From Paralichthys olivaceus (Eukaryota > Chordata > Actinopteri > Pleuronectiformes > Paralichthyidae): DNA of 64,000 nt. The stretch covers positions 9,374,501 through 9,438,500 of the forward strand of contig NC_091113.1 in NCBI RefSeq assembly GCF_024713975.1, written 5' to 3'. A program made the translations under genes and the position numbers. Each line of letters opens with the position of its first letter. Within the stretch, counting starts at the first letter, position 1. Under the pieces are notes generated by a model. It made no database searches. It was not told where the DNA came from and was given only the letters and a program-made list of their open reading frames with translations. Of the stretch, positions 22,962-57,000 are shown in pieces.

Positions 22962-23048
22962 TTAAAAGAAACCCAGAACTGCCAGACCATTAGGAGTCCA
23001 TACTGCCTCTTCCAAAGTTGAATCCTTCCTCTTGTTCACTATATGCAT
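22962..23048 (-). pseudogene. orphan carbonic anhydrase exon (relic of a lost array member)
   Basis: Reads on the minus strand [16 protein letters not shown], then GLAVLGFF and a stop. This is the CA exon that carries the third zinc ligand (His119). It is closely similar to exon 12 of the two-domain gene (35143-35232), and similarity continues into the flanking introns (TGCATTTAATGCAACA at 23109-23124) and to a fragment of the preceding exon's acceptor near 23173-23195 (GTTAACTGGGAGTTGAG). The ATT-GAG-donor end is lost. No other exon of this copy survives as an open frame between 23200 and 24340. Confidence 0.85.
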
Positions 23049-23689
23049 CTGGACAAAGAAAAAACCGAAACTCACATTACACACAAAGCAAATCCTATTA
23101 CAAACCATTGCATTTAATGCAACAACTCACGCGTTGAAGGATACCTGATACAGCCAACATGTCTTCTTTCAGTTAACTGGGAGTTGAGAGAGAACACAAG
23201 AAGTGTAAATGGCTTTCACAGACAGCATTTCATAATGTTATAAACCAACATATTGTGTTGTGAGGGCAGGCGTAGGTTTTGTATTTGAAACATAGGGTGA
23301 TTGACTTGTCACAGTTTTGATGCCAACACGCTCCTGGATCATTCTGGTAATGCTTGTTTTTTTATGACAAGAGATTTGACCAAGAGCAACTGGCAGACTC
23401 TCTTGTCTCCAGGGTCTAAGGAAATAAACAGCCTCCTGTCTTCCAATTTGTCACATTCCAGGCAGTGGACACAGGTTATCAGGTCCGCTGCTGGTTTGGT
23501 GCCTCAGCTGCCTTTCAGTGCCTCACAAATTTAGAGCTGCATCCACACGCACTGTATGGAGCCCACTGATCTGATGATGTTATCAAGAAACCAGTCAGCT
23601 CAGCTGTGCAATAGTTAAATTAAAATGAAAATAAAAGGAAGGTACTATAAAAAAGTAAAATGCAATACAAAGCTACGACTGCATTCAAA

Positions 23690-26215: not shown

Positions 26216-27393
26216 GAGAGCTGAAAATCAGGTTAAAATATAAAGTAATACAAAAAATCTGCAAAAAAGTAACTCATCACATGGCATGTGCAAAGCAGGT
26301 ATTAATCCATTTTAGCATTTCAAAATCCCCAATATTAAAGCTACTCAGTAAACTGAATATAGCCTTGTCAGCTCAAAACGGACGTGAGCTGTGCCGGATT
26401 CACTACTATGCTGCATAAAAACATTCAGTACTTTTGTCCATAACATGAATGCAATTGTGCAAATATCCATACATAATAAATATATTTAAATTGTATTTTG
26501 TAATTAACATGAGATTACGACAGTCAAATTCATAAGAATGTCAGTTGAACGATGACTTGATAATATTGTTAATACATTGGGCTACATTAGAAAAGATCGA
26601 AGTTCTTGTGTTTTTGAGGCTTCGTTTTATCTTGGATTTAAAAACAGTGATCACATGTGCATGTTGCATTGTACATGTGCTATAAGTACTGCTTTTAAAA
26701 ACAGGTTAATCAGGAACACAGTCAATTGCTGGGAGCTGTTTGGTAACTATTTCTTCCACAGAGCAAGACTCAGCACCATCAACCCCAAAGAGTAGCAGGT
26801 TGTGGAGAGCTGAAAATCAGGTTAAAATATAAAGTAATACAAAAAATCTGCAAAAAAGTAACTCAACACATGGCATGTGTAAAGCAGGTATTAATCCATT
26901 TTAGCATTTCAAAATCCCCAATATTAAAGCTACTCAGTAAACTGAATATAGCCTTGTCAGCTCAAAACGGACGTGAGCTGTGCCGGATTCACTACTATGC
27001 TGCATAAAAACATTCAGTACTTTTGTCCATAACATGAATGCAATTGTGCAAATATCCATACATAATAAATATATTTAAATTGTATTTTGTAATTAACATG
27101 AGATTACGACAGTCAAATTCATAAGAATGTCAGTTGAACGATGACTTGATAATATTGTTAATACATTGGGCTACATTAGAAAAGATCGAAGTTCTTGTGT
27201 TTTTGAGGCTTCGTTTTATCTTGGATTTAAAGAGTGATCACATGTGCATGTTGCATTGTACATGTGCTATAAGTACTGCTTTTAAAAACAGGTTAATCAG
27301 GAACACAGTCAATTGATGGGAGCTGTTTGGTAACTATTTCTTCCACAGAGCAAGACTCAGCACCATCAACCCCAGAGAGTAGCAGGTTGTGGA
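26216..27393 (-). repeat. tandem direct duplication, about 589-bp unit
   Basis: Copy 1 is 26216-26804 and copy 2 is 26805-27393, head to tail and nearly identical, with scattered substitutions and a 3-bp difference (GGATTTAAAAACAG versus GGATTTAAAGAG). Each copy carries the 3' flank and last codons of the neighbouring CA pseudogene, so copy 1 includes an orphan 3' piece of the last CA exon (26746-26806). High identity points to a recent event. Confidence 0.9.
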
Positions 27394-31933: not shown

Positions 31934-34900
31934 TTAAATATGCAAATTGGATACAATGGTAAAAAGACATGCCGGCAGCAGAAACTGCATGATGGGTGCA
32001 AGGCAGCTGGCTGCGGCTGAGGTGTAGACTGTCCTGTCCTGAAGAGCCTGCGGAGCCCGATACACGTTGTTGTATTTCATCTGAGTTGGGAACAGCATCA
32101 TCTGGTTGGGTTAAACCAAAAGTCAGCCTTCAGTTGGTAACAAATTCACATGCTCCGCTCATCCACCCAAAGTAATTCTTTTTTTCTCCCCAATCTAGAG
32201 ACCTGCATGAACATTTCAAAGAGCTGAAGACTGAGCAATCCTGCGATACACGTCCTAAAATCAGTACAATAGTAAAATGTCAGTAATAGTAAAAAGGCTT
32301 TTTCACACTGCAGAATAACCAAACCATGTCTCAGTTTGATCCACACCAGGATCAATTTGGCAAAGGATGAAGGCAAGGTTGTGTATTATTAGATGGTTGT
32401 TGGGGTTGATGGATAGGTTTGTAAAATATTAACACAGGAAACCACAATTTGTTTCCTGTGAGAAACCTGTTTATTCCAGCTTAGATGGTACATTTGATTA
32501 TTAGAGCTGTCATCAAGGTTGCGACATGCCTGTAACTGCAGCGGATTTCAAGCATTCATTTGACACTTGAAAGTTTGAAGGAACTTAAATGAACTCTTGT
32601 TTGAGAAGGCACTCAGTCTTTGGCTGACCACAATTTTAGTTGATGCGGGTGAAACCAAGTGGAAATGGCGGCTTGGAGCCGTTGAGCCGGCCAGACTTGT
32701 AATTCAGTGGCTAAGGGTGGGGCTGCACCAAGCAAGAAAAAATTACCAGATATCTTAGAAGGTACATGACGTTCTGATAAGTCATATAGTTTCAGCTTTC
32801 AACTCCTGCCAAGTGACGTTGATATAAAACACTAACAGTTTTAAGGGCCATCACAAGGTGACCACTGCCGGTCTCGTAACTTGTTGTACGTCTTGTTAAC
32901 CTCCCATGTCAAACATTGAAGACTTTATTACCAGCACAGTTGAATGTTTGACTCATCTGACCAGACTAAAAGCAAAAAAGTCAAGCAAGTCTATGATGGT
33001 TATAAATATGAATTTTAAAGTGAGTTTGATTATATTCCAACTAATCCAGAAATTTAAAAAAAGTTTTCCCTGTATAGTTGAAAACTAGTAGCTCGCTCTT
33101 CTGTGCATTAAAGGAATAGTTCAAAATGCCTGCTCCTGCGGGACACTTGGATGACCACAGGAGCAGAATGGAGGCGTTTTTTTTTTTTTTTTTTTTTTTT
33201 TTACATTTGACAAATCGGTCACCATTTACTTCAATTGTATTGATTTGGCTGCAATGCTGCTTACCCCTGAAACCCCAAACACTCCACCCACCCCTCCATC
33301 GGCATAGTGGTGAGTAGATGAGTGAATTTTCATTTTTGGGTGAACGATCCCTTTAGGCCCAATGTTTATTTACAAAACTACTTATCATTGACATGTAGAC
33401 ACGTTGCTTCATTGATATGAACATGGGCATTGTAGTTTTGTAATTAGGGAATCGCGCTCACACACACACACACCATTTTGCTGCCCTAAACACTGGCTTG
33501 AGCAGTCAATGTGTAATATTAAGGCATTTAAAGTAGTTCCCTGAAAAACCATATTTTTCTCTTGGGTAAAACTACAGCGCTCAGAAATTTAAAATAAAAG
33601 AATGATGAGCTGTTTAATAATTTAAATCCTCAGTGGAGTCCACTGTGTTAGCACCAGAGAGAAACCACACAATTGTTTGCATTTGGTCTTTTAAATTGGA
33701 TTAATGAAGAAAATTCCGGACTCTACGTCACACCCGTTCTGATTACTTTGTGCTCTCTGTGATCTGGGTATGAACTCCTTGAAGATCATATGCATATACC
33801 ATGTTGGTGTAAATTCCTAAAATTACATTGGAGCTACGAGTCAACAATTTAATCTCAGCCATTTATTTCAAATCTTTGATATGCATGAGAAACAAACAAT
33901 GATGTCAGAGAAAATCTGACAATGCATTTCTGTATAATCTACTGAAAAATCACTGGAGACTTGATTGTGCTGTGATACAGTGGAACAAACAGCTTCTGGA
34001 AATGAAACGTAATGACCTCACCACATGATGATGCAAGAAAACTGTTATTTAAATCTCATTATGCTACCAATATCATTAAAGCTGTTCAGGAAAATACTCT
34101 TACAAATATAAATCCCTTTTTTGTTTGAAAACAGATGAGTCCACTCACCAGTTTTTGGTCGACTTTGATAGACTCTTTAAAGACGGTCCAAACCACAGCT
34201 TCGTTACAACCAGGGGTGGTTAAGGAGCCATTGTAGCGGTAGTACACAGTTTTGCTCACACTGCTGAGCAGGTCATCAATAGAGATCTCCTCTGTGAAGT
34301 TAACTTTTGAGTCTGTATTGAAGCAAAAAATGCACAAAATGTAGTGGTACATTTATGTCTGCACATTCAGTGTTATATGCATTGAAACAAAGGGGCACGC
34401 ACCGATGTCTTCAATAGCTGAGAGATAGTTTGTCAATTTCTTCCAGGCTCCAGTATCAGCTGCTGGACTCGGTGTGGGATTTGTCTGCAGAGACCAAAGA
34501 CTCTAAGTAAAGATGGATGACCCATCTCTACTACCTTCCACTTTCCAAAAATGAAGCCAGTAGCAAACAGGGGATGGCACCACGGTGGCGACCAATTAAA
34601 AGTCAGTCTGAGCTGTCAATCATCACATTTTAGCTAATTTTTATAGCATAAACTAATAAAAACCAAATTTACTGGAGAATTAGCAGTTGTATGATAAGAA
34701 CTACTTAAAATGACATATTTGAGAAAAAATTATTTGATGTGCACTTTGACTTTTTAGTTTGGTCCTTGTGTCATGGTGAACAATGTCCGGTATCAACATT
34801 TAAGGCCCTGGTTTAACAAAGCTATGCTACTTACCTGTCCTGAGCCGCTGCTGCTTTTGGTCGATTCAGCCTGGAAAATATGTGAGAAAGTCTCATACAA

Positions 34901-37900
34901 AAGATTCACTGGTAATGTCAAAGTAAGACAGGGAAGAAAAGAAAGCAGGATTCACTTTGTTCAGTAAGACTCCCTTTAAGTTTTTTTAAAGTGAGATATT
35001 TAAGATGGACACTAGTTGTTTGGTACATGTTCTGGTTGTCATGTTTTTTGTGTGGAGACAGGTCACATTAAAAATCTACTTAGAATCAGCAGATACTGTA
35101 CATCATGGATTTGCATCTTACTATTAACAAACTCAACATTACCTCAATAAAAAAACCCAGAACTGCCAGGCCATTCGAAGTCTGTACAGCCTCGTCCAAA
35201 GTTAAATCCTTCCTCTTGTTCACTATATGCATCTGGACAAAGACACAAAAGCAAACCTCATTACAAACCACTGCATTTAATGCAACAGAATTATTCAGAG
35301 TTTTGCAATTACCTCCATTGAATATCGTTTTGAATCCACCATGTGCTCCGAGCCCTTGGAGACAGTGGAACCCCAATGGAAATGGAACTGAAGGGTGGAG
35401 TAGACATGTCCCAAACCGCCTCCCGATATCTCCACTGTGTTTTCTTTCAGCACACACTTAACTGGGAGTTGAGTGAGGACACAAGCACAGGAGTAAATGA
35501 CCCTAACACATTTAAAAAGGGTCCTCGCTCAGGCCCTAATTATAGAAATCTAAGTTTCTCCTAAATCAGCAAATTCTCATTTTTAGGTGTCATTGTCATA
35601 AGGCTAATAAAAATACAGCTAACTTGAGTTTCAGTTGTGAGATGTGTTGGATTTCAAAAACACAACAGCCTGTAATGTAAAAGGAAAACTGTCAAACCTG
35701 CGTGGCCGGTGTTGGTGATGTACTTGATGGTGTGTTTGTCGTCAAACTTTGTAAAGGTGAAGGCGTCAAGTTGTTTGTCCAGCACAGCCTTCTTTGACTC
35801 AATGTTGATGGGTGACTGATTTTCACCGCCACAGTGTGACAGAGACAGAAGGTGCCAGCGAGACTGATTGTAAACTGATGGGAGAAGAAAACCAAAGTTT
35901 AAAACAAGCCAGAGTCCTCTGCCATCCAATATGTCTGAGCAGTAACTTTATAAATTTGGTGATACATACTGCAGTGATTATCATAGCACCATGGACCGCC
36001 TGTAAAGAATGGAACTGGATATTTAATGCGCCAACACAGAGTCAGAAATATCATGAGTCACATGTGTGTGATTTTTCAACTCACTGGGAGGGAGAGAAAC
36101 TTCAGGAGACGCAAACACTTGACGTCCATTAAGTTCTTGTACAGGCCGATAAACATTGGTGAGTCCCGTAATCGAGGCAAACCGCTCAATCTTAGAATAT
36201 AAAAAGACAAACATTTCCTCCGATGGATCCAACAATGTAGGGCTGTCACTTTTTACACACTTCAGTAATTGATTTGAACGTGGTAAATGTATTATTTCAA
36301 TTGCATGCCCCGTAGGGCCATCAGTATTGCTATGTTGCAATGAAAATGGAGGACGCTAGCAGGCAAAGCTGTCCTGAGCAGACAAGCATGACACCAGAGA
36401 ACCTGAGAAGCAGTGTGTTAAAGTCTTTTGGATTCTGCGGCGTAGACCGCAAAGGTGTAGCCGTTAGCGGAAGCTGAGCAACACCAAGTGTCCAACCTTC
36501 TCATAGATACAATCAAACACATAGTGTGTGGTGTGAAATTTGTTTCCATTCAACACAATGAAGATATGCTGAAATAAAATATTTTGTAGTTGCTAATGAG
36601 TAGCAACATCAACTGGTTATTAGTCGACAGGCTCCTGGGTGTGGACTTTATATTGTGATCATTTTTACTGAATTTATCCCAATTCCAAACATTTGATTTA
36701 TTGCATCATGCAGACGTGCATCATAGGTTAAGCTCACTTTGACATCTGATTGTGTTGTGCTGTTGGTATACTATGACTGGTATACTATGCTAAGACAAAA
36801 TGTAAATGCACCTTTTCAGTTATGGAACACAGCCAAGAACAATTCACATGCAGAGAAATGTGAAACGTTTTCTTATCAACTGTTTGCTGTCACACAGATA
36901 AGAAATCATTCTTGGATCATCACATGCAGCTAACCAAGGGCATTGTGTTGCTACGACAGAATGGTTATGAAACACAATTATCCAACCATGCAGAGAACAG
37001 GCTGTACAAGTATATTGGCATTTGTCTACATGCAGGCAAGGGTCACCAGATGACAGTGTGCACGTGATTCCTCTTGACATAGGTCAAGATATTAAAGAAG
37101 CAACAATTAAGACATTTTAGCCGTCACTAAGGTAGCCAGAGGACAGGAACAGGGAAACCTGCACCAAGACAGCTGGGAACAGACTCTGACACAGCTCCTG
37201 TTGACTGATCGTGCTTGAGTATTTGCTGTACACAATGCAGTAATTATTTATGACAGTTTGTCTCTAGGCGTCAGCAAAATCAATTGCAGTAACATAATGG
37301 GTACTTCAAACAAAGTCTTAGCTTTAGTATGAGTATACATGTAATAATTAACTAGTGAGTACCCGTGGGTCTGACTGTCAACATGTTGACTGGCATTGTG
37401 GCTGGGGTGCTGCCACTGCAGGACGGTCTTATCTACTGATAAGGAAACATGTACACCTACATCCTGAAGAGGGTTCTTGACTTGCATTTTAATTTGACTC
37501 CTGAGTGGTCATAAATGAATTTCCTTGACCATGCAAATCCACCATTATGTTCACAGCAATTTAGCTTTTGTGCTAAGCTGGTAGTGTTCAATGTATCTTG
37601 CCATGGACATGGTAAAGCAGTGCCTGAAGGCTTTGTACTGGGGCACAGTCTCTTTGCACTTTTTGAAATACTACAAATACAAGCACTTTAAATGTCTCTT
37701 AAGGAATTTAACATTGCAGGAGCATGTGTTGTCTAAACTTAGCTTTTCCTCCTCTTTCTCTCCAGAATGAAGATTTTCAGGCTGCCCAACTGACCAGATT
37801 TTTGTTGATGTTGATTGGCTCTTGAAAGACAGTCCATACGACCGCTTCACTGCAGTTGGGCGTTGTCAGGGAGCCCATGTAGCGATAGTACTTTGTTCGG

Positions 37901-40900
37901 GAAACACTTCCAATCAGGTCATCAATAGAGAGGCTATGGTTTATGGCAATCTCAGTGTCTGTGGAAAAGGGGAAAAAAAAGCTGTTATCAACTAAATGTA
38001 GATATATGGATTTAAATGCACCAACATGGCAGAATCCTTGATTTGATGCCATGAACTTGATTACAAAAAAATTAAAAAGACTAATCCAACCAAACAATCA
38101 TGATTTGACCCGCAAACCTGTACCATCTATACACCGGCCCCTGCATCACACACAAACCCTCATATCCCTTCATGCCCTTGTCCCCAAGTACCTGTCTCAC
38201 ACTTTAAAAACTACCATTCATGATTATGTAATTATACTATTTTATTTACTTATGTTGCTCATCAGGTAAGATGTGAGTATGCCCCATGGTCCTGTCATAT
38301 TTCCATCTTCTGTTGCCTTTAAGGAGAACACATCATTATTGAATTTGCAACGTGGATATAATTGTGTTTTGACAGTTCATGCGTTCCTTGTTAATTTTGT
38401 TGTTGGCAAAACCAATTCTGACTGTTTGAGTGTGTTAGCATTCAGAAGCAGCCAATGGATGACCTTGAACAAAAAACAATTTCATGGGTGCATTCCCAGT
38501 TCAAATTAGCAAGCTGGGTTTCAGCAGAAAAGTAATGTCTTTGTTTGTTTTGTTTTACAACAGGTTTGCCCAACACTTTTCTTCGCAATAATAATTGTGT
38601 ACACATACGTTAAGGAAAAACCCAAGAACAGCAATTCCTTCCGGATTTGCGACGGCCTGTTCCTTAGTGAGACCTTTCTTCAGACTAACGATATGCATCT
38701 GAAAGAGAGTATATAATTAGTGATGACGTAAGAGAAAATCACAACTTAACAGAAGAAAAACACAGCGAATTTCAAACTCGAATGTACCTCCACTGGATAT
38801 CTCAACTTGTCAATCGTGTGCTCCGAGCCTGGATGATGGGCAGTATCACCCCAGTGAAAATGAAACTGGAGCGTAGAATATGTTCCATTAAGTCCACCTC
38901 CACTCACTTCAACTTCATTATCCTTCAGCAAGCATACCACTGTGCATAAAAGAGATGTTTGGTGTGCTTCTGTGCAATTAAATGCTTAGATTCATTTCTT
39001 GATATCTGTCACAAATACTTGAGCTCTTGTTTTGCTGGTTGATAATTTGCTTTTAAGTGATGGACAACCAGCAGTGTTACATTCCTTAGCAGAAAAGCAC
39101 TATACCCAGAATGTACTGCAGGGATCATGTATTGCATGCAACAATGAACCCTATTCAAAATAAAGGAAGTGAACACTTAAATCACACACCAGATCTTGAT
39201 GAACAAATTATTCAAGTTGAAAATCTTTACTGATCAACATTCTATCAATTGTTGAGAACAAAAAAATAAATAAATAAATAAAAAACGCTTGGTGGAAACA
39301 ATCAACCCATTTAGGGCTGGATTCAAAACCACAACAAATTGAAATCAGTGACTCAGTATTGTGCATGGCCCCTTCCTGCCTGTATGGACTCCTGACTATG
39401 TCTTGACATGCTCCTGATAAATCGGTGGATGGTGTCCTGGGGGATCTCCTCCCAGACCTAGATCAGGGCATCAGTGAGATCCTGGACCGTCTGTGATGGT
39501 AGTTGGCAGTGTCAGATTCACAGATACATAACGTGCCATATAGTAGCTCAATTTGATTCAGGTCCGGGGAACGTGAGGGCCAGTCATGAATGCCTTCATC
39601 ATCCAGGACCTGCTGCTGGGTCAATGCCCTTCTGTGGCCCTGTCCAGCTCTCCTTGTGTAACAGCCGGTCTCCTGGTATTTCCTCCATGCTCTTGAGACT
39701 GTGCTGGGAGACATAGCAAACCTTCTAGCGACCGCACGTATGGATGTGGCATCCTGTAGGAGTTGGACAACCTGTGCAACCTGATTGAGCTGCGGGTACC
39801 CCCTCATGCTACAGGTAGTGGCAAGACAAAAGAACACAAAACTAGAGAAGAATCAGTCTGAAAGGATAAGGAGAGAGCAACTGTCTGTGGCAACCACATG
39901 TAAAACATTCCATTTTAGGAGGTTGTCTTGCTTTTGCCTCCATTGCACCTGTTTCTAATTTCATTTGCACCAAAGCAGGTGAAACTGATTCACAATCACT
40001 CATGCTTCCTTAAAGGACAGATTGATGTCCTTGAAGTTTTACTGACTGGTTGTTTACTGTGACGATTCATTGTTCCCTGCTGACGTCAATTTTCTTAGGT
40101 AACATCTCCCTTCATAATATATAGATCTGCACACAGCTCATTAATTCATTCAGCCCCTCCTCATTCTGCAGTTTCTCCAACACACACAAGCAGAGATGGG
40201 AGGGGTGCGTGCATGGGGAGGAGTTTAACAACTTTGGACATGTGTCACCCAACGGAAACTGGTTGGGAAAGAAGTTGTGTCAGAATGGATAAGCAAAGAG
40301 TAAACTGTAAACTTGGTAAACCGCAGTTTGCATACACAACAGCACATATAGAACACTGCGTCATCTTTGTGTTTAAAACTTGATCAAATTATTGTTCGAA
40401 TTTTATGTATAAAACTTAAACTACCTTTTTTATGCTCATGTAAAATTCTAATGGGGCTGGGAGTTTGGCTAATGAAGTTGATGCCCATTTTTTTGAGTGA
40501 GATTTCAGTCAACCCAGATTTTCAAAAGGAAACCGTTTGTTTACCTGTATGTCCGTTGTTGGTGATGGATTTCAAGACATCCTGAGAGGAGAAGTTTTTG
40601 AAGGTAAAGTCCAGCAGGTTCGGGTCTCTTTGAACATGGCTGGTGTCTATATCAATAGGAGACTGCCTCTGTCCTCGACAGAAAGAAGAGATGTCTCCCC
40701 AGTGGGTCGGGCTGTGCGCTATGAAAGGTCGAGGTTTTCGCAATGTTAAGAACCAATGTAAACAAATGATTGATCCAAATCATTCAGTGAGTCGGAAATC
40801 TGTCCGTTCTTACCACAGCCAGTATAGCACCAGTCACTTCCAGCAGCTGAAAGAGAAATACAGCAAATATAAACTTTATTCATCTCATGAACCCAATGAT

Positions 40901-41478
40901 TTTGTGACCATTTTATTACCTGACCTTGAGGTTTGGAACCACTGAACCATTTGTTTTTAAATTACTGCACTCACATTGTGGTATTTCTAAAAGAAAAGTG
41001 ACATATGTCCCTGTGGGCATGGAGGGGGCTGGGAGAGCACCGCCACCATGTCCCTGATTTATAAAAGAAATAAATCCTGTTGGAACATTGAACTAGGGTT
41101 TCTAAAAAGGTGTGACATGAACTGGTTCCACAATTAAATGAGGACACAAGCTTGGAGACCAAATAAATCGTGAGATATATACGTGAAAAAAGACAGTTGT
41201 TGAAAGTTACTTCAGTTGGTGACACACAAATGGATTTAGTTTGTTAAATTAAACTTATGTTAAAACAAGTAATATTTTTAATTTGACAAACTTAATTTGA
41301 GTACTACCAATTATTATAAAAGTATTTAGGTATTTTCCTTTCTTTGAAGTTATGCAAAATCAGGAAACAAAGGATAGAGCTCATTAACACACAATTTCCT
41401 GGAAATTGATGCATTTTACTCACCACATTCTATCAAAGCTCCCAGACTGAGCCACAGCACCAGTGAGGAGGGACACAT
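31934..41478 (-). CDS. two-domain GPI-type extracellular carbonic anhydrase (CA4/CA15-like)
   Basis: Predicted to carry two complete CA domains. Exons: 41424-41478, 40814-40846, 40545-40718, 38788-38939, 38609-38698, 38250-38316, 37795-37958, 36085-36190 (domain 1); 35970-35999, 35698-35874, 35313-35461, 35143-35232, 34835-34870, 34403-34484, 34149-34312, 31934-32101 (domain 2). Total 1737 nt, 578 codons plus stop, all phases closing. Domain 1: signal [46 protein letters not shown]; its last exon has no hydrophobic tail and ends in a phase-1 donor. Domain 2: starts at WCYDNHC with no signal exon found, then NTGHA, FHFHWG, MHIV, SLTTPGC and a hydrophobic GPI-like tail. Zinc ligands, Thr199 and shuttle His64 are present in both. 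Alternative: two single-domain genes with missed terminal exons, which I think less likely. Exon 6 (38250-38316) is the least certain. Confidence 0.8.
33110..33355. mobile_element. MITE with poly-T tract
   Basis: Begins AAAGGAATAGTTCAAAATG and ends CATTTTTGGGTGAACGATCC, the inverted-end pattern of a widespread fish MITE. It encloses a 25-bp T run at 33178-33202. It lies in the last intron of the two-domain CA gene (32102-34148), which otherwise shows only AT-rich sequence. Confidence 0.65.
34504..34800. mobile_element. truncated MITE-like repeat
   Basis: Starts AAAGATGGATGAC, contains AAAAATGAAGCCAGTAG and TTTTTAGTTTGGTCC, and shares these modules with the element at 42035-42478. Boundaries are approximate. 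Confidence 0.45.
39151..40105 (-). mobile_element. internally deleted Tc1-like transposon
   Basis: A minus-strand open frame (39463-39837) holds the N-terminal paired-type helix-turn-helix of a Tc1-like transposase ([20 protein letters not shown]). It then jumps directly to the C-terminal motif [10 protein letters not shown] with its Glu (QIE). The middle of the DDE domain, including the first catalytic Asp, is gone. The flanks carry element ends that I recognise from fish Tc1 copies (CTCCTCCCAGACCT, GGATGGTGTCCTGGGGGATC). It sits in the intron between exons 3 and 4 of the two-domain CA gene. End coordinates are estimates. Confidence 0.8.
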
Positions 41479-41713
41479 CTGCATAAGGAATGAGGAAAAT
41501 AATTTTTAATCAATATGAATCATGATCTGAAATCCCATTAAAACAACTGTGGCCCTGCGAGAGCATGAGAAATTACCTTGTGTGATGCTACTTGGTTACA
41601 AATTCCATTATTTTAGCATATCATGTGGAAGTGATGTACCCCATATGGACAAAAACAGTTAAAGAATGATAAAAATTAAAGTGACATGTGTTAAACATCT
41701 GAAATCGTCTTAC

Positions 41714-45402: not shown

Positions 45403-48065
45403 TCACTGAAAGAGGGACCCAGTCAGCTCATCCACAAGGCCGCCTGCAATACACACAAATATTAATACTTCAATAGAATACACGAACACTGGTACGTGCA
45501 CTGTTTAAATAATAATACTACCTGGGGAGCAAATGGTGTCACACAGTATGGGGCAGAGGTAGCAGGACGAACATCCCTGCAGGACAAACAGTGTGAGCAC
45601 ACAAGGACGTCGTGGTCATGATGAAATGTGCAAGGTGTGTTTTTTCTAAGGAGCTAGGACCTTACCTGACAGTGCACGCAGTGATCTGACTCGTCTCCCT
45701 CCTCACATGGGCACTTATCACAGCTACTAGAGCAGTGCTAACAGGAGAAACACACACAAACAGTGCACAGTTGTGTTTATTACCCAGAATACCATTGGAC
45801 CATTGAAGGCTCGTACTCCTTTCTCATCATTTTACCTGGCAGACGGAGCAAACGCTGCACCAAGAGCCAGAGCGGAAGTGCAGCATGTCAGAGAGGGCGT
45901 GTTCGTCACCATGGGTCTCTGCTGCGACGGCCTCATGCTCATCTGAAGTCAGCAATGTTAAAAACGTTTAATAACTTGTATCAGTGAGCACATATCGAAT
46001 CAATAGCTAAAAGGAAACCGCAGTGCAAAAATGTGATGGAGATTCATGAAAATATCCCGCTCTGTACGTAGCAAGCAGGTTCCTAGTTCGAATCCCTGTG
46101 TGGAGTTTGCATGTTCTCCCCATGTCTGGGTGGGTTTCCTCTAACTTCCTCCCACAGTCCAACACATGCAGATTGAGGCTGGGTTAATTGACCATAAGTG
46201 TGAATGTTAGTGTGAATCACCTGTTTGTTGCCCCTCAGCGTATATAAGCGGTAAAGATGGGTCGACGTGTTTATGTTTAAACTCCTAAATGTCAATATCT
46301 ATTTCCGAGTCTATCTAAGTCTATTCTTGGCCTGCTTCATGTAAACCTTCAGCAGAGATCATGAGATCAAATTATTGGTGTCAGGTTGGTGGCGTGAGGT
46401 TATGTTAAATGTGAATCAGCTTAAATGTTGTACCCTAGTAAAGTGCGTAACACCGAGGACGAGGCACGTGTCAGATATAGTCAGAAAGACAAAATGTGCA
46501 GAACAGGACGGATTATAAAAACACATTTTTGTTTCTGGTGTTGTTCACATGTATCGTATAACAGTATGAACACTTTGTAGTGATCGACAAGGGTTTTTCC
46601 CCTTTTCTGTCCCAAAATAGCCATATTGGCCGAACAAAAGGAATGGGATACTGCCGGGTGCCATGCAGCTACCACATAGATAAGCCGAGCTATTTTAGGA
46701 CCGATATGTGTCACACTGTTCTAACAGTAGCTTTAACAATGTCAGAGAAGAAACTCAAGTATGGGATGAATAACACGGCACATTCAGAAAGGGCTCTGAA
46801 CGCCTGTGTTTAAAAGTTGGATGTCTGATATAAAAAGGTTTTGCATGATAAAAGATGAAGTTTCAAAACCGTGCATACATTTTTGACGGACTGCAAACAT
46901 TATTTTGGATTTGAGTTTCTGAAGCACCTCACTGTTCTCCCTGTGCATGATGATCTGAAAACTGATGCACGTGGAAATGTTGAAACTTGAGTTTTGAAAG
47001 GTCGGATCTGTATTTTGAAACTTTGCAGACGTACTGCAGCCTGTTCCTCCAGTGCTGAGTTAACCACACACACACAGATTCATCCACTTGCAAGCTTGTG
47101 ACTTTTTCCTGCACCTTTGATCTGACACACCCCCAACTTGATGATCAGGATCCTGGATGCAGGAACATTTGCTCCTAACCTATCATAGATCTGTTTTTAT
47201 CAGATTTCAAGCTTTTCAAACATCAAGTTTCAACATTTCAAAACATTTTTTCTGTCATGATATTCATTCCAAACTTTAGAGTCAAACTCAAAGAAAAAAG
47301 TCAACTTGTCATATTTGATACTAATTTGTGCCTTGTTTTAGTTTCATTTTCCTGAAATATATTTAGGATCTGTTTAATAAATCGATACGTTAAAGAAGTG
47401 GATATACCATGATCGTCCTCTTCCTCCTCAGCATCATCACCCTCCTCTTCCGCAGCAACCTCCTCTCCTTCAGTTGCCTCCTCTTCCTTAGCATCTTCTT
47501 CTTCTTCTTCTTCATCATCCTCATCTGCAGCCTCCTCCTTCTCTTCTTCTTTTTCTGCATCATCCTCATCTGCAGCCTCTTCCTCCTCATCCTCCTCCTC
47601 TTCTTCATTGTCATCTTCTACCTCATCTGAAGCCTCTTCCTCTTCCTCCTCATCGTCCTTCTCCTCTTCTTCATCGTCATCCTCTACCTCATCTGAAGCC
47701 TCTTCCTCCTCATCGTCCTTCTCCTCTTCTTCATCGTCATCCTCTACCTCATCTGCAGCCTCTCCCTCCTCCTCATCATCCTCCTCCTCGGCTGCCGCCT
47801 CATCACCCTCCTCTTCTTCGGCATCATCATCCTCCTCCTCGTCTGATTCTTCTTCACCTCCCTCTTCTTCTACCGCTTCCTCTTCCTCAACAGCACCACC
47901 ATCGCCCTCAGAGGTCTCGCCCTCCTCTGCCACAACCTCATCGTTTCTGGCTTGGAGGTCTGCTTCGGCCATGTTCTGGGCACTCACTACCCCAGAGAGT
48001 GGCAGCTGGGATGGGCACAGGAGCACCAGCATGAGTCCCAATACCCATGTCTTCACAGGTGCCAT
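45403..48065 (-). CDS. hrc: HRC-like calcium-binding protein of the sarcoplasmic reticulum (acidic, histidine-poor)
   Basis: Luminal low-affinity Ca2+-buffering protein of muscle SR in mammals. Five exons: 47408-48065, 45836-45942, 45666-45737, 45522-45576, 45403-45443; phases close to 310 codons plus stop. The start ATG at 48065-48063 has a good context (CCAAGATGG); the 5' extension has no ATG. Exon 1 encodes a signal peptide (GLMLVLLCPSQLPLSGVVSA), then about 170 residues that are almost all Glu, Asp, Ala, with tandem repeats of a SDEVEDDDEEEEKDDEEEE unit. Exons 2-5 encode the Cys-rich tail: WCSVCSVCQ, CPCEEGDESDHC, CYLCPILC, ICSPG and LFQ, the order I recall for mammalian HRC C-termini. 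Histidine, abundant in mammalian HRC repeats, is nearly absent from the acidic part. Adjacent trpm4 matches mammalian gene neighbourhood. Confidence 0.88.
46060..46265 (+). repeat. tRNA-derived SINE-like repeat
   Basis: Starts with a B-box-like AGTTCGAATCCC, then TGTGTGGAGTTTGCATGTTC, CTTCCTCCCACAGTCCAA and TTAATTGACCATAAG, ending near AAGCGGTAAAGATGG. This is a very common fish dispersed repeat. It lies in hrc intron 1, which otherwise shows no feature. Confidence 0.6.
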
Positions 48066-48446
48066 CTTGGAAGATTTACACAACTCTTAAGAGCTAAAAA
48101 AAATCCACTCAGGAGGAACGTCTCCAAAACTGGTTCTTCCACAAAAAAAACTAAACGACCGAAGGTTTGTCAGCTCTTAAAAAAACAAAAATCCACTGAA
48201 AACAAGAGAGAGCTGCAGACAGGAAATGATTTCAGATCTTTGCTCCACGCTGCAGAGAGAAGGGGTGAGGAGGGCCGTGCTCAAAGGAGTGACAGAGCGG
48301 TTCGTGCCAGTCTGGTGCCAGTGAACACAGAGGACACAGTGGAAACATACAGCTGGGTTTGTGGCGTATGGTTGTGTGGCTGCGTGAGTGACAGAGGCAC
48401 ATGTGTGGGAAGAATGCTCCTGAAGCCTTTAACACAGTGTATTGGA

Positions 48447-54000: not shown

Positions 54001-57000
54001 ATAACAACTAGAATGGAACTCATTAGAGAGCCTTCCTCCAAGCAGTCACCTAATGAAACCACATTTAAATTCACTAGATCCAGATTTTTATTTGGATCTG
54101 CACCAAATTGCCATAGATATCTGTCTCCCATAATTATTATAAATTTCATCAAGATCCATGATTAATTATATGGGAAAACAAGGACAATGTTAAAAAAAAA
54201 AATCAACCTCACAATGTTAGAGATAGAGAAAAGAAAATCCTGGACCCACTCCCTGAACACCAAAATGGAGTCTTCCCTGACCCATGACACATCTTTCTTC
54301 CAAGTTTTGTTGCAATCTGTAAGATAGTTTTTGCGTAATCCTACTAACTAACAGATGGACACAGACAGTGACGGGGGTGAAAACATAATATTCATGTTCT
54401 GTGCGTAACCACACCTGCAGATTAGTCCAATGATGAAGAGAATGATGGCGGTCAGGTCACACTTGTTCCACACGTCCTGAATGTACACTCGCATCCTCTG
54501 GCGCCAAGTCATCGCCCCCAAAAAGAAAGTCTTGGAGAAGACAACACCAACTTCACAGATCAGTTTAAAAGATCACACACTGTTTTAGTTTCACTCCATA
54601 TCTTTGTTAGAGGTGAAATTGATTCATTAAAATATGAAGCGTCCCATTAAACGTCTCTCTCACCTCTCGGATCTCCTCACACACGATGGTGAACACCCAG
54701 AAGTACAGCACGTACTCAGTGACGGCCGGACCAGCGGGCGGAGGGGGCTCGAAGTCCACCAACAGCACGTAGGCGAAAAGCAGGAGGAAGAGAAAGTACA
54801 TGAGGACATTGCCCAGAAACGAGGTGACGGGTGCAAACCAGAACTGGCGCCATCTCGACACGATGAATGGGCGCTTTGGTGGTCTGGGAGTCTGAGGTAT
54901 GCCTGTGAGGAAGGTCGTTGGACATTGGATTAGCAGCTGATCAGTCGGAACAGCTGAATGCATCAAGCAACAAATATTCATGGCCGATCAAATCACATTA
55001 ATGCCTGACATCATACATAAAAATGAGTCTGGACAGAGGAGGCAGAAGTGGTTGTGGATTTTATTTCCTTTTATATCCCTTCAGCATTGCATTGACAGCG
55101 AGTACAACATGTTAGCACGAAAGTCGGCTATGTTGTGTGTCCGTAGCAGGAAACTGTGGTTGTTGTCGTAATGACGATCAGCGTCAGGCGTTAATGTAAC
55201 ATGTCAGTCCTGCGTTAGAGGTACTGCATTTAAACAGGACCCACCTTTGATGTGTGCTGTCCTCGGAGTGGTTGCATCTTGTGCGTCAGCTTCACTGGTG
55301 AAACAACAACATATTTTTTAAAGAATCAACACAACAACACATACAAAGCAGTGGTTCTCATTCAAAGCTGCAACCTGGCTCCTTGACACAACTGATGATC
55401 GACAGAAAACGCCAGAGTTAATTAAGTAGGAGCATTACATGTGCTTGATGTCAGAGAAGGAGAAGATGGTGGTGCCGTAGAGGCTGTCGCTGTCCCGGCC
55501 TTGACCTTCCTCATTAGGCTTCCCCTCCTCCTCTAGCTGATGGTCCTCGTGTTTCCTGTGTTGCAAAGTTTTAGCGAAGTGATAACACTCTCCAGAGCAG
55601 GCAGTTTTGTGTGGGAAAATCTATATTGTTTGGATGCTAATCACAAATAACAGTGTCGTCAAAAAAATCACAGTGTTGTAGATGTGGACTTTACCTGAAG
55701 GAGATTAAGTTGGTGTAGCAGAGGAAGGGGCAGAAGAACGTGATGACGAGCTTCCACACCTGTGTGTTCCTCTTCATGTCACCCCACCAGATCTGCGACA
55801 ACAGAGACTGGAGGAGGACAGACCATTAATGTTATTATGTTAAAACTATAACTCACGACTTATTACGAGTTACAGCAGACTTCCATACGAGGAAGAGCAC
55901 ATTGGGTTTGTTGTATTTGAGTATTTTCTTCTAGACAACACGAAAAACAGAGCGAGCATGAATAGAAGTGGTTAAACTACAAAGATGCATCGACTTGTTC
56001 TTGTGTTGTCTTTAATGTGTTCGTCAGAAAACAGCGACAAACCTGCACTCCGTCGTTGCTGAAGAAAAGCCGAGCGTCAGCGCCCATGCCCATCTGGAGG
56101 CAGGTCGTACCGCCCCAAACCGGAGACTTCCTGATCAGCAGAGTGAACGAGCGACTCTCATTGCTCCGATAGCAAGAGCTGAAGACGTCTGAGAGGCGGG
56201 GGGAAAAAAACATGCAGAGATGACGAAACTGACAGAAAAGAAAAACTTTTGAAATATCTACTCATGGCAATATAAATTATTTAAACAGCAACATCATTTA
56301 CTTATAAGGAGTGGCCAAATAACTCTGTAGTTTTGACGATGTGAAACTTAATGTAAGTTTATTATTTCTGCTCATTATTTTTAAATCAGTCGCTGTTTAA
56401 AGGAACTTTAGTGGATGACACATTCAGGGTCTCACCATGTGCCAGGTTCTCAAAACTCTGGGCCAACTCTTTCATGGAGACCTTGTTCTCAGTCTCAGTC
56501 TCCAGCTTGGAAAGTTCTCTCAGGATCTTACAGCCGCTCAGAGCGCTCAGCACCGACTCCGCCGCCTGACACAAACAAAGACGGACATCAGATAAACTGG
56601 TGCTGATAAAATTCACCGTATTTTGCATTTAAGTCAGTTGTGATGGTCATGGAAGAGACAAGCTATGAGTGTGTAAGCAGCAACAAGTCAGAGGGGGGTG
56701 TCAGTTCAAAAACGTTGATTACCATTGTGGGCAAATGTGTGTTTTCTGTAAGTGTCAGTTCAGATTTTTACCATCTCCCAGAAGAAAGTAGCCATCTCTC
56801 TGCGATTCTGCAGAACAGCCCAGATGAAAAGCGACGCCCAGGGGAAGAGGCAGCGTTTATTGCGATACAGGCAGTCTCCACGCAGCAGCTTACTGGCACG
56901 CTGGGAAGGAGAAAGATTCACTTAGGGGGCAGCGAGTCGAAGGTGACAGTCGTGAGCCGGTCAATCACTATTGACTTGTAAAGCAACAAGAGTTCATTTA

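Follow-up and report, generated by a model that had tools for sequence, protein, structure and literature searches.

The window analysed here, 64,000 nucleotides of the Paralichthys olivaceus genome (C21:9374501-9438500), raises the question of whether two complete carbonic anhydrase (CA) domains lying one behind the other on the same strand are made as a single membrane protein or by two adjacent genes. The reading best supported by the DNA is a signal-bearing two-domain protein with a GPI-like tail, for which splicing and anchoring at this locus are predicted. The gene is very probably the fish CA4C, a CA4-family gene whose product would carry two catalytic domains in one chain, with one signal and one GPI anchor, and which would have originated by fusion of tandem genes. 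The two-domain architecture is real but not new, as CA4C was described from Eupercaria gill transcripts in 2021, according to the account of this isoform in that paper (PMC7918649).

Gene model and predicted product

Sixteen exons on the minus strand, all with GT-AG borders and matched phases, were joined into one open frame of 580 codons starting at ATG 41484 (Table 1). The preliminary description had proposed 16 exons in a frame of 578 codons; the exons and the single frame were borne out, while the length was not, 578 being the count from an inner ATG at 41478. A Pfam search matched the single spliced product to Carb_anhydrase in two stretches, with a score of 482 bits, and in the spliced frame domain 1 (D1) and domain 2 (D2) are joined by a linker of ten residues, from VFAS to WCY. 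The predicted two-domain protein contains 10 sequons. With GT-AG borders, a 12-nt micro-exon could also be placed between E1 and E2 (40986-40975), but the frame does not need it, and it was omitted from the model. The intron between E3 and E4 contains a 124-aa ORF (39463-39837, minus strand), which we take to resemble a Tc1-type transposase fragment.

Table 1. Positions in the window of the four CA units and of the exons modelled for domain 1 (E) and domain 2 (F)
Feature	Position	Strand	Description	Basis
Domain 1	41484-36085	-	CA unit	
Domain 2	35999-31934	-	CA unit	
Copy B	30093-27334	-	CA unit	
Gene A	18964-16767	-	CA unit; intact, single-domain, CA4-like	
E1	41424..41484	-	Signal-peptide exon (20 residues), end in phase 1	Hydropathy, spliced frame
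E2	40814..40846	-	Domain 1 WCY exon	Spliced frame
E3	40545..40718	-	Domain 1; ends directly past NNGH (His64)	Spliced frame, motif
E4	38788..38939	-	Domain 1; two zinc His (QFHFHWG) and Glu106	Spliced frame, motif
E5	38609..38698	-	Domain 1; third zinc His (EMHIV)	Spliced frame, motif
E6	38250..38316	-	Domain 1; short, with an 11-residue stretch	Spliced frame
E7	37795..37958	-	Domain 1; Thr199 (SLTTP), donor GTCAGT	Spliced frame, motif, donor score
E8	36085..36190	-	Domain 1 final exon with a 24-residue stretch, without hydrophobic tail; phase-1 donor GTGAGT	
Linking intron	36000..36084	-	85 bp, links the two domains; phase 1 on both sides	
F1	35970..35999	-	Domain 2 WCY exon, phase-1 acceptor	Spliced frame
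F2	35698..35874	-	Domain 2; ends directly past NTGH (His64)	Spliced frame, motif
F3	35313..35461	-	Domain 2; two zinc His and Glu106	Spliced frame, motif
F4	35143..35232	-	Domain 2; third zinc His	Spliced frame, motif
F5	34835..34870	-	Domain 2; Ser-rich, 36 nt; neither domain 1 nor gene A has a modelled counterpart	
F6	34403..34484	-	Domain 2	Spliced frame
F7	34149..34312	-	Domain 2; Thr199	Spliced frame, motif
F8	31934..32101	-	Final exon; GPI-like hydrophobic tail and stop	Spliced frame, hydropathy

The junction between the domains

The case for a single gene depends on the junction between E8 and F1. E8 carries the usual C-terminal CA strand (17 residues), as seen in comparison with CA2 and the other CA loci of the genome, and ends at a phase-1 donor ahead of any hydrophobic tail. 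F1 opens with a phase-1 acceptor of the type that receives the signal exon in gene A and in domain 1. On an approximate donor frequency table, the linking donor CCA/GTGAGT scored 2.98 bits, a value reached by 2.5% of the GTs of that strand, which placed it 15th of 28 scored donors from the window's CA units. On the same approximate scale, the donors of E7, E5 and E6 were weak (2.43, 0.98 and 0.57 bits, respectively), and those of F1 (-0.44) and F2 (0.14) were weaker still. The introns between signal exon and WCY exon measure 113 bp in gene A, 125 bp in copy B and 577 bp in domain 1. The earlier claims that domain 2 begins only 85 bp beyond domain 1, with a phase-1 acceptor and the WCY exon, and that the linking intron has normal borders were confirmed.

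Signal peptides and GPI tails were read from hydropathy only. On this measure E1 is signal-like (2.36, compared with 2.94 for the signal exon of gene A), and the tail of F8 reaches 2.52 versus 2.26 in gene A, values compatible with the signal peptide predicted for domain 1 and the GPI-like end predicted for domain 2 in the preliminary description. The absence of a signal exon for domain 2, also part of that description, held as well: among candidates running from an ATG to a phase-1 donor in 36000-37794, none exceeded chance, and the best mean hydropathy was 1.51. Dinucleotide shuffles of this interval reached 1.51 in 192 of 200 cases and 2.36 in 92 of 200, indicating that good signal candidates are frequent by chance and that the interval holds fewer of them than usual. 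An out-of-frame ORF in E8 (25 residues) was considered as a signal for domain 2 and rejected; its use would require GTTGAA, a poor donor, and its hydropathy is no higher than 1.51. Hydrophobic frames do exist near the end of domain 1, and the description of this domain as tail-less is based on E8 itself, which stops short of one. In the intron between E7 and E8 such frames reach 2.83, a value equalled in 22 of 200 shuffles (2.5 was reached by 62 of 200), and they were rejected as a tail for domain 1. Downstream of E8, frames out of the frame of domain 2 have hydropathies of up to 2.65.

A pair of separate genes is an improbable explanation of this junction. Domain 1 would then be secreted, with the E8 donor read through for 20 residues to a stop, and domain 2 would use an internal start. 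It is compatible with the overlap between that stop and an ATTAAA hexamer, and with an ATG inside the linking intron (36054) that reads through 24 residues directly into domain 2. However, the hydrophobic stretch following this ATG is interrupted by charged residues, the upstream signal candidates fall below most shuffles, and two-domain transcripts are known from fishes with such a gene, as reported in the account of CA4C (PMC7918649). Beside the homology of E8 and the published transcripts, we judged the mimic tails and ATG 36054 to be weak objections to a single gene.

Kinship, catalytic residues and neighbouring CA units

D1 and D2 both fall within the CA4 group. A tree was built over 220 columns from 20 sequences, comprising 15 other loci of the genome, D1, D2, gene A, a partial human CA4 and a CA2 mutant; in it, human CA4, gene A, D1 and D2 formed a clade with an ultrafast bootstrap of 100, and the grouping of D1 with D2 against gene A had a support of only 59. 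BLASTP identities were 46% for D1-D2, 45% for D1-A and 44% for D2-A; over the tree columns they were 52.1% for D2-A, 50.2% for D1-D2 and 46.1% for D1-A. Among solved structures, the best phmmer relative of D2 was CA4; for D1 the first places were taken by CA2 forms and other CAs, and CA4 followed closely. The two domains and gene A are thus nearly equidistant, and a recent duplication of the domain is not evident in this gene.

Motifs and alignment with CA2 and CA4 placed the catalytic residues at H88, H116, H118, E129, H142 and T224 in D1, and at H350, H378, H380, E390, H403 and T502 in D2. We take these positions to correspond to His64, His94, His96, Glu106, His119 and Thr199 of CA2. The three zinc histidines, Thr199 and the shuttle His64 that had been proposed for both domains were therefore found in place, and Glu106 can be added to them. 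The WCY cysteine and the cysteine following TTP are also kept in D1 and D2. From the six kept residues, both domains are predicted to be catalytic. Synonymous differences exceeded amino-acid differences in D1-D2 (pS 0.671, pN 0.346; 251 codons), D1-A (pS 0.780, pN 0.369; 241 codons) and D2-A (pS 0.749, pN 0.361; 246 codons); the synonymous differences are close to saturation or have reached it. This excess is compatible with purifying selection on the amino acids.

A search of the 588-Mb genome (25 contigs) with the family PF00194 gave 74 exon-sized matches. No second set of CA exons, and hence no second two-domain locus, was found at 15 other CA loci, with three further loci left out of the count. 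The four CA units of the window all lie on the minus strand. Gene A has one Carb_anhydrase stretch (Pfam, 248 bits) and carries Lys at the proton-shuttle His64 position (ENTGK). Copy B is probably a pseudogene: its signal exon starts with GTG instead of the ATG present in gene A, no counterpart to the sixth exon of gene A was found in it, and when three alternative ends of its third exon were compared, the end that offers a GT donor disrupted the frame. Its final two exons are 97-99% identical to those of gene A, perhaps as a result of gene conversion.

Further traces of the family and other reading frames were observed in the window. The stretch 26216-26807 (minus strand) is a local duplicate of the 3' end of copy B. 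Within it, 26216-26500 matches 26805-27089 at 99.3% identity (the piece searched ended at 26500), and 26748-26807 repeats the end of the last CA exon, with 96.7% identity to gene A. A domain-2-like relic at 22965-23211 (minus strand) contains one F4-like exon with 75% protein identity, and stretches of it are 76-79% identical to the D2 locus. Beside the CA cluster, an acidic-repeat protein with a signal-like start is encoded at 47301-48083 (minus strand), which we take to be HRC-like, and 54607-54981 (minus strand) is presumably a TRPM-like channel exon.

Decay of domain 1 has to be weighed against these data. Under this alternative, domain 1 would be a decaying copy joined to domain 2 only by occasional read-through transcripts, and the weak donors of E5, E6 and E7 and the decay of the adjacent copy B point in that direction. 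We regard it as very unlikely, as its eight exons are free of stops and frame shifts, it retains 46% identity to domain 2 and all six catalytic residues, and the synonymous excess also counts against decay. Least credible of all is that the domain 1 GPI exon and the domain 2 signal exon were both lost through a deletion in the assembly: the two absent parts would indeed sit side by side at one junction, but the stretch contains no Ns, a phase-matched GT-AG intron would rarely be left by a chance deletion, and the same architecture is known in other species, as the CA4C account indicates (PMC7918649).

Relation to CA4C and probable origin

The two-domain gene preferred here has a published precedent. 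In gill transcriptomes of 14 Eupercaria species, three CA4 isoforms were distinguished, with proteins predicted from assembled transcripts and both domains extracted where two were present; a legend of the paper names stickleback, sea bass, perch and pufferfish among the species (PMC7918649). The third isoform, CA4C, has a consecutive pair of CA domains, a rearrangement held to be unique to Eupercaria and regarded by the authors as common to all of them; it is described as membrane-bound and gill-specific, and in Chionodraco hamatus its level is below 5% of that measured for the two remaining gill isoforms (PMC7918649). Transcript support for a two-domain CA thus exists by precedent, in other species. 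The premise of the preliminary description that vertebrate membrane CAs are single-domain is outdated in the light of that report, and with it falls the claim that an active tandem CA on one anchor would be unusual. The few sentences given to CA4C, in one section of that paper, contain no enzymology or gene structure. The name is not unique, since the zebrafish 'ca15a/ca4c' is a 324-residue protein (PMC9032886).

We infer that the present gene is CA4C from its architecture and CA4 descent; it was matched by description, both being CA4-related proteins in which two CA domains follow one another. The twin domains of CA4C were called a recent duplication by the authors (PMC7918649), whereas here the distances among D1, D2 and gene A are almost equal. 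Single-domain CA4, represented by human CA4 and gene A, shares the WCY N-terminal exon, the cysteine after TTP and a GPI-like end with the present gene, and gene A also shares its exon phases, but they have one domain rather than two. Outside the vertebrates, DDCA of Tridacna squamosa and tgCA of T. gigas also combine two alpha-CA domains with a signal peptide and a predicted C-terminal GPI site, and are membrane-associated in the gill (PMC5879104). These molluscan proteins differ in that their authors infer transmembrane stretches that leave one active site intracellular (PMC5879104), and they presumably arose independently. Fish CA6 with a C-terminal pentraxin also has an extra domain, but not a second CA (PMC7918649). 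What our results add is the anatomy of the gene, namely the linking exon and intron, the single-domain neighbour, the decaying copy and the near-equal distances of the domains from each other and from that neighbour.

The proposed explanation is that the single signal peptide would export the chain and the single C-terminal GPI signal would retain it on the membrane, with both active sites extracellular and interconverting CO2 and bicarbonate. The most likely origin would be a fusion of two tandem CA4 genes, in which a deletion took the GPI-coding end of gene 1 and the signal exon of gene 2, so that the final exon of gene 1 came to be spliced onto the WCY exon of gene 2. The exon frame, the two domains, their conserved catalytic residues and the CA4 descent are observed; from these we infer splicing at this locus, a host within the right group of fishes, CA4C membership, anchoring, the activity of each domain and the route by deletion. 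In length, the linking intron is nearer to the first introns of gene A and copy B than to that of domain 1, a resemblance suggesting that it is the original first intron of domain 2 and that the end of E8 may derive from the lost signal exon. Tentatively, CA4C may be an old fusion of two diverged tandem CA4 genes, with E8 a hybrid exon made by one deletion out of the last exon of the first gene and the signal exon of the second, and the linker formed by the surviving donor and short first intron of the second gene, the two domains having since retained separate, possibly differently tuned, active sites. With two active sites on a single anchor, such a CA could increase the turnover of CO2 at the surface of the gill.
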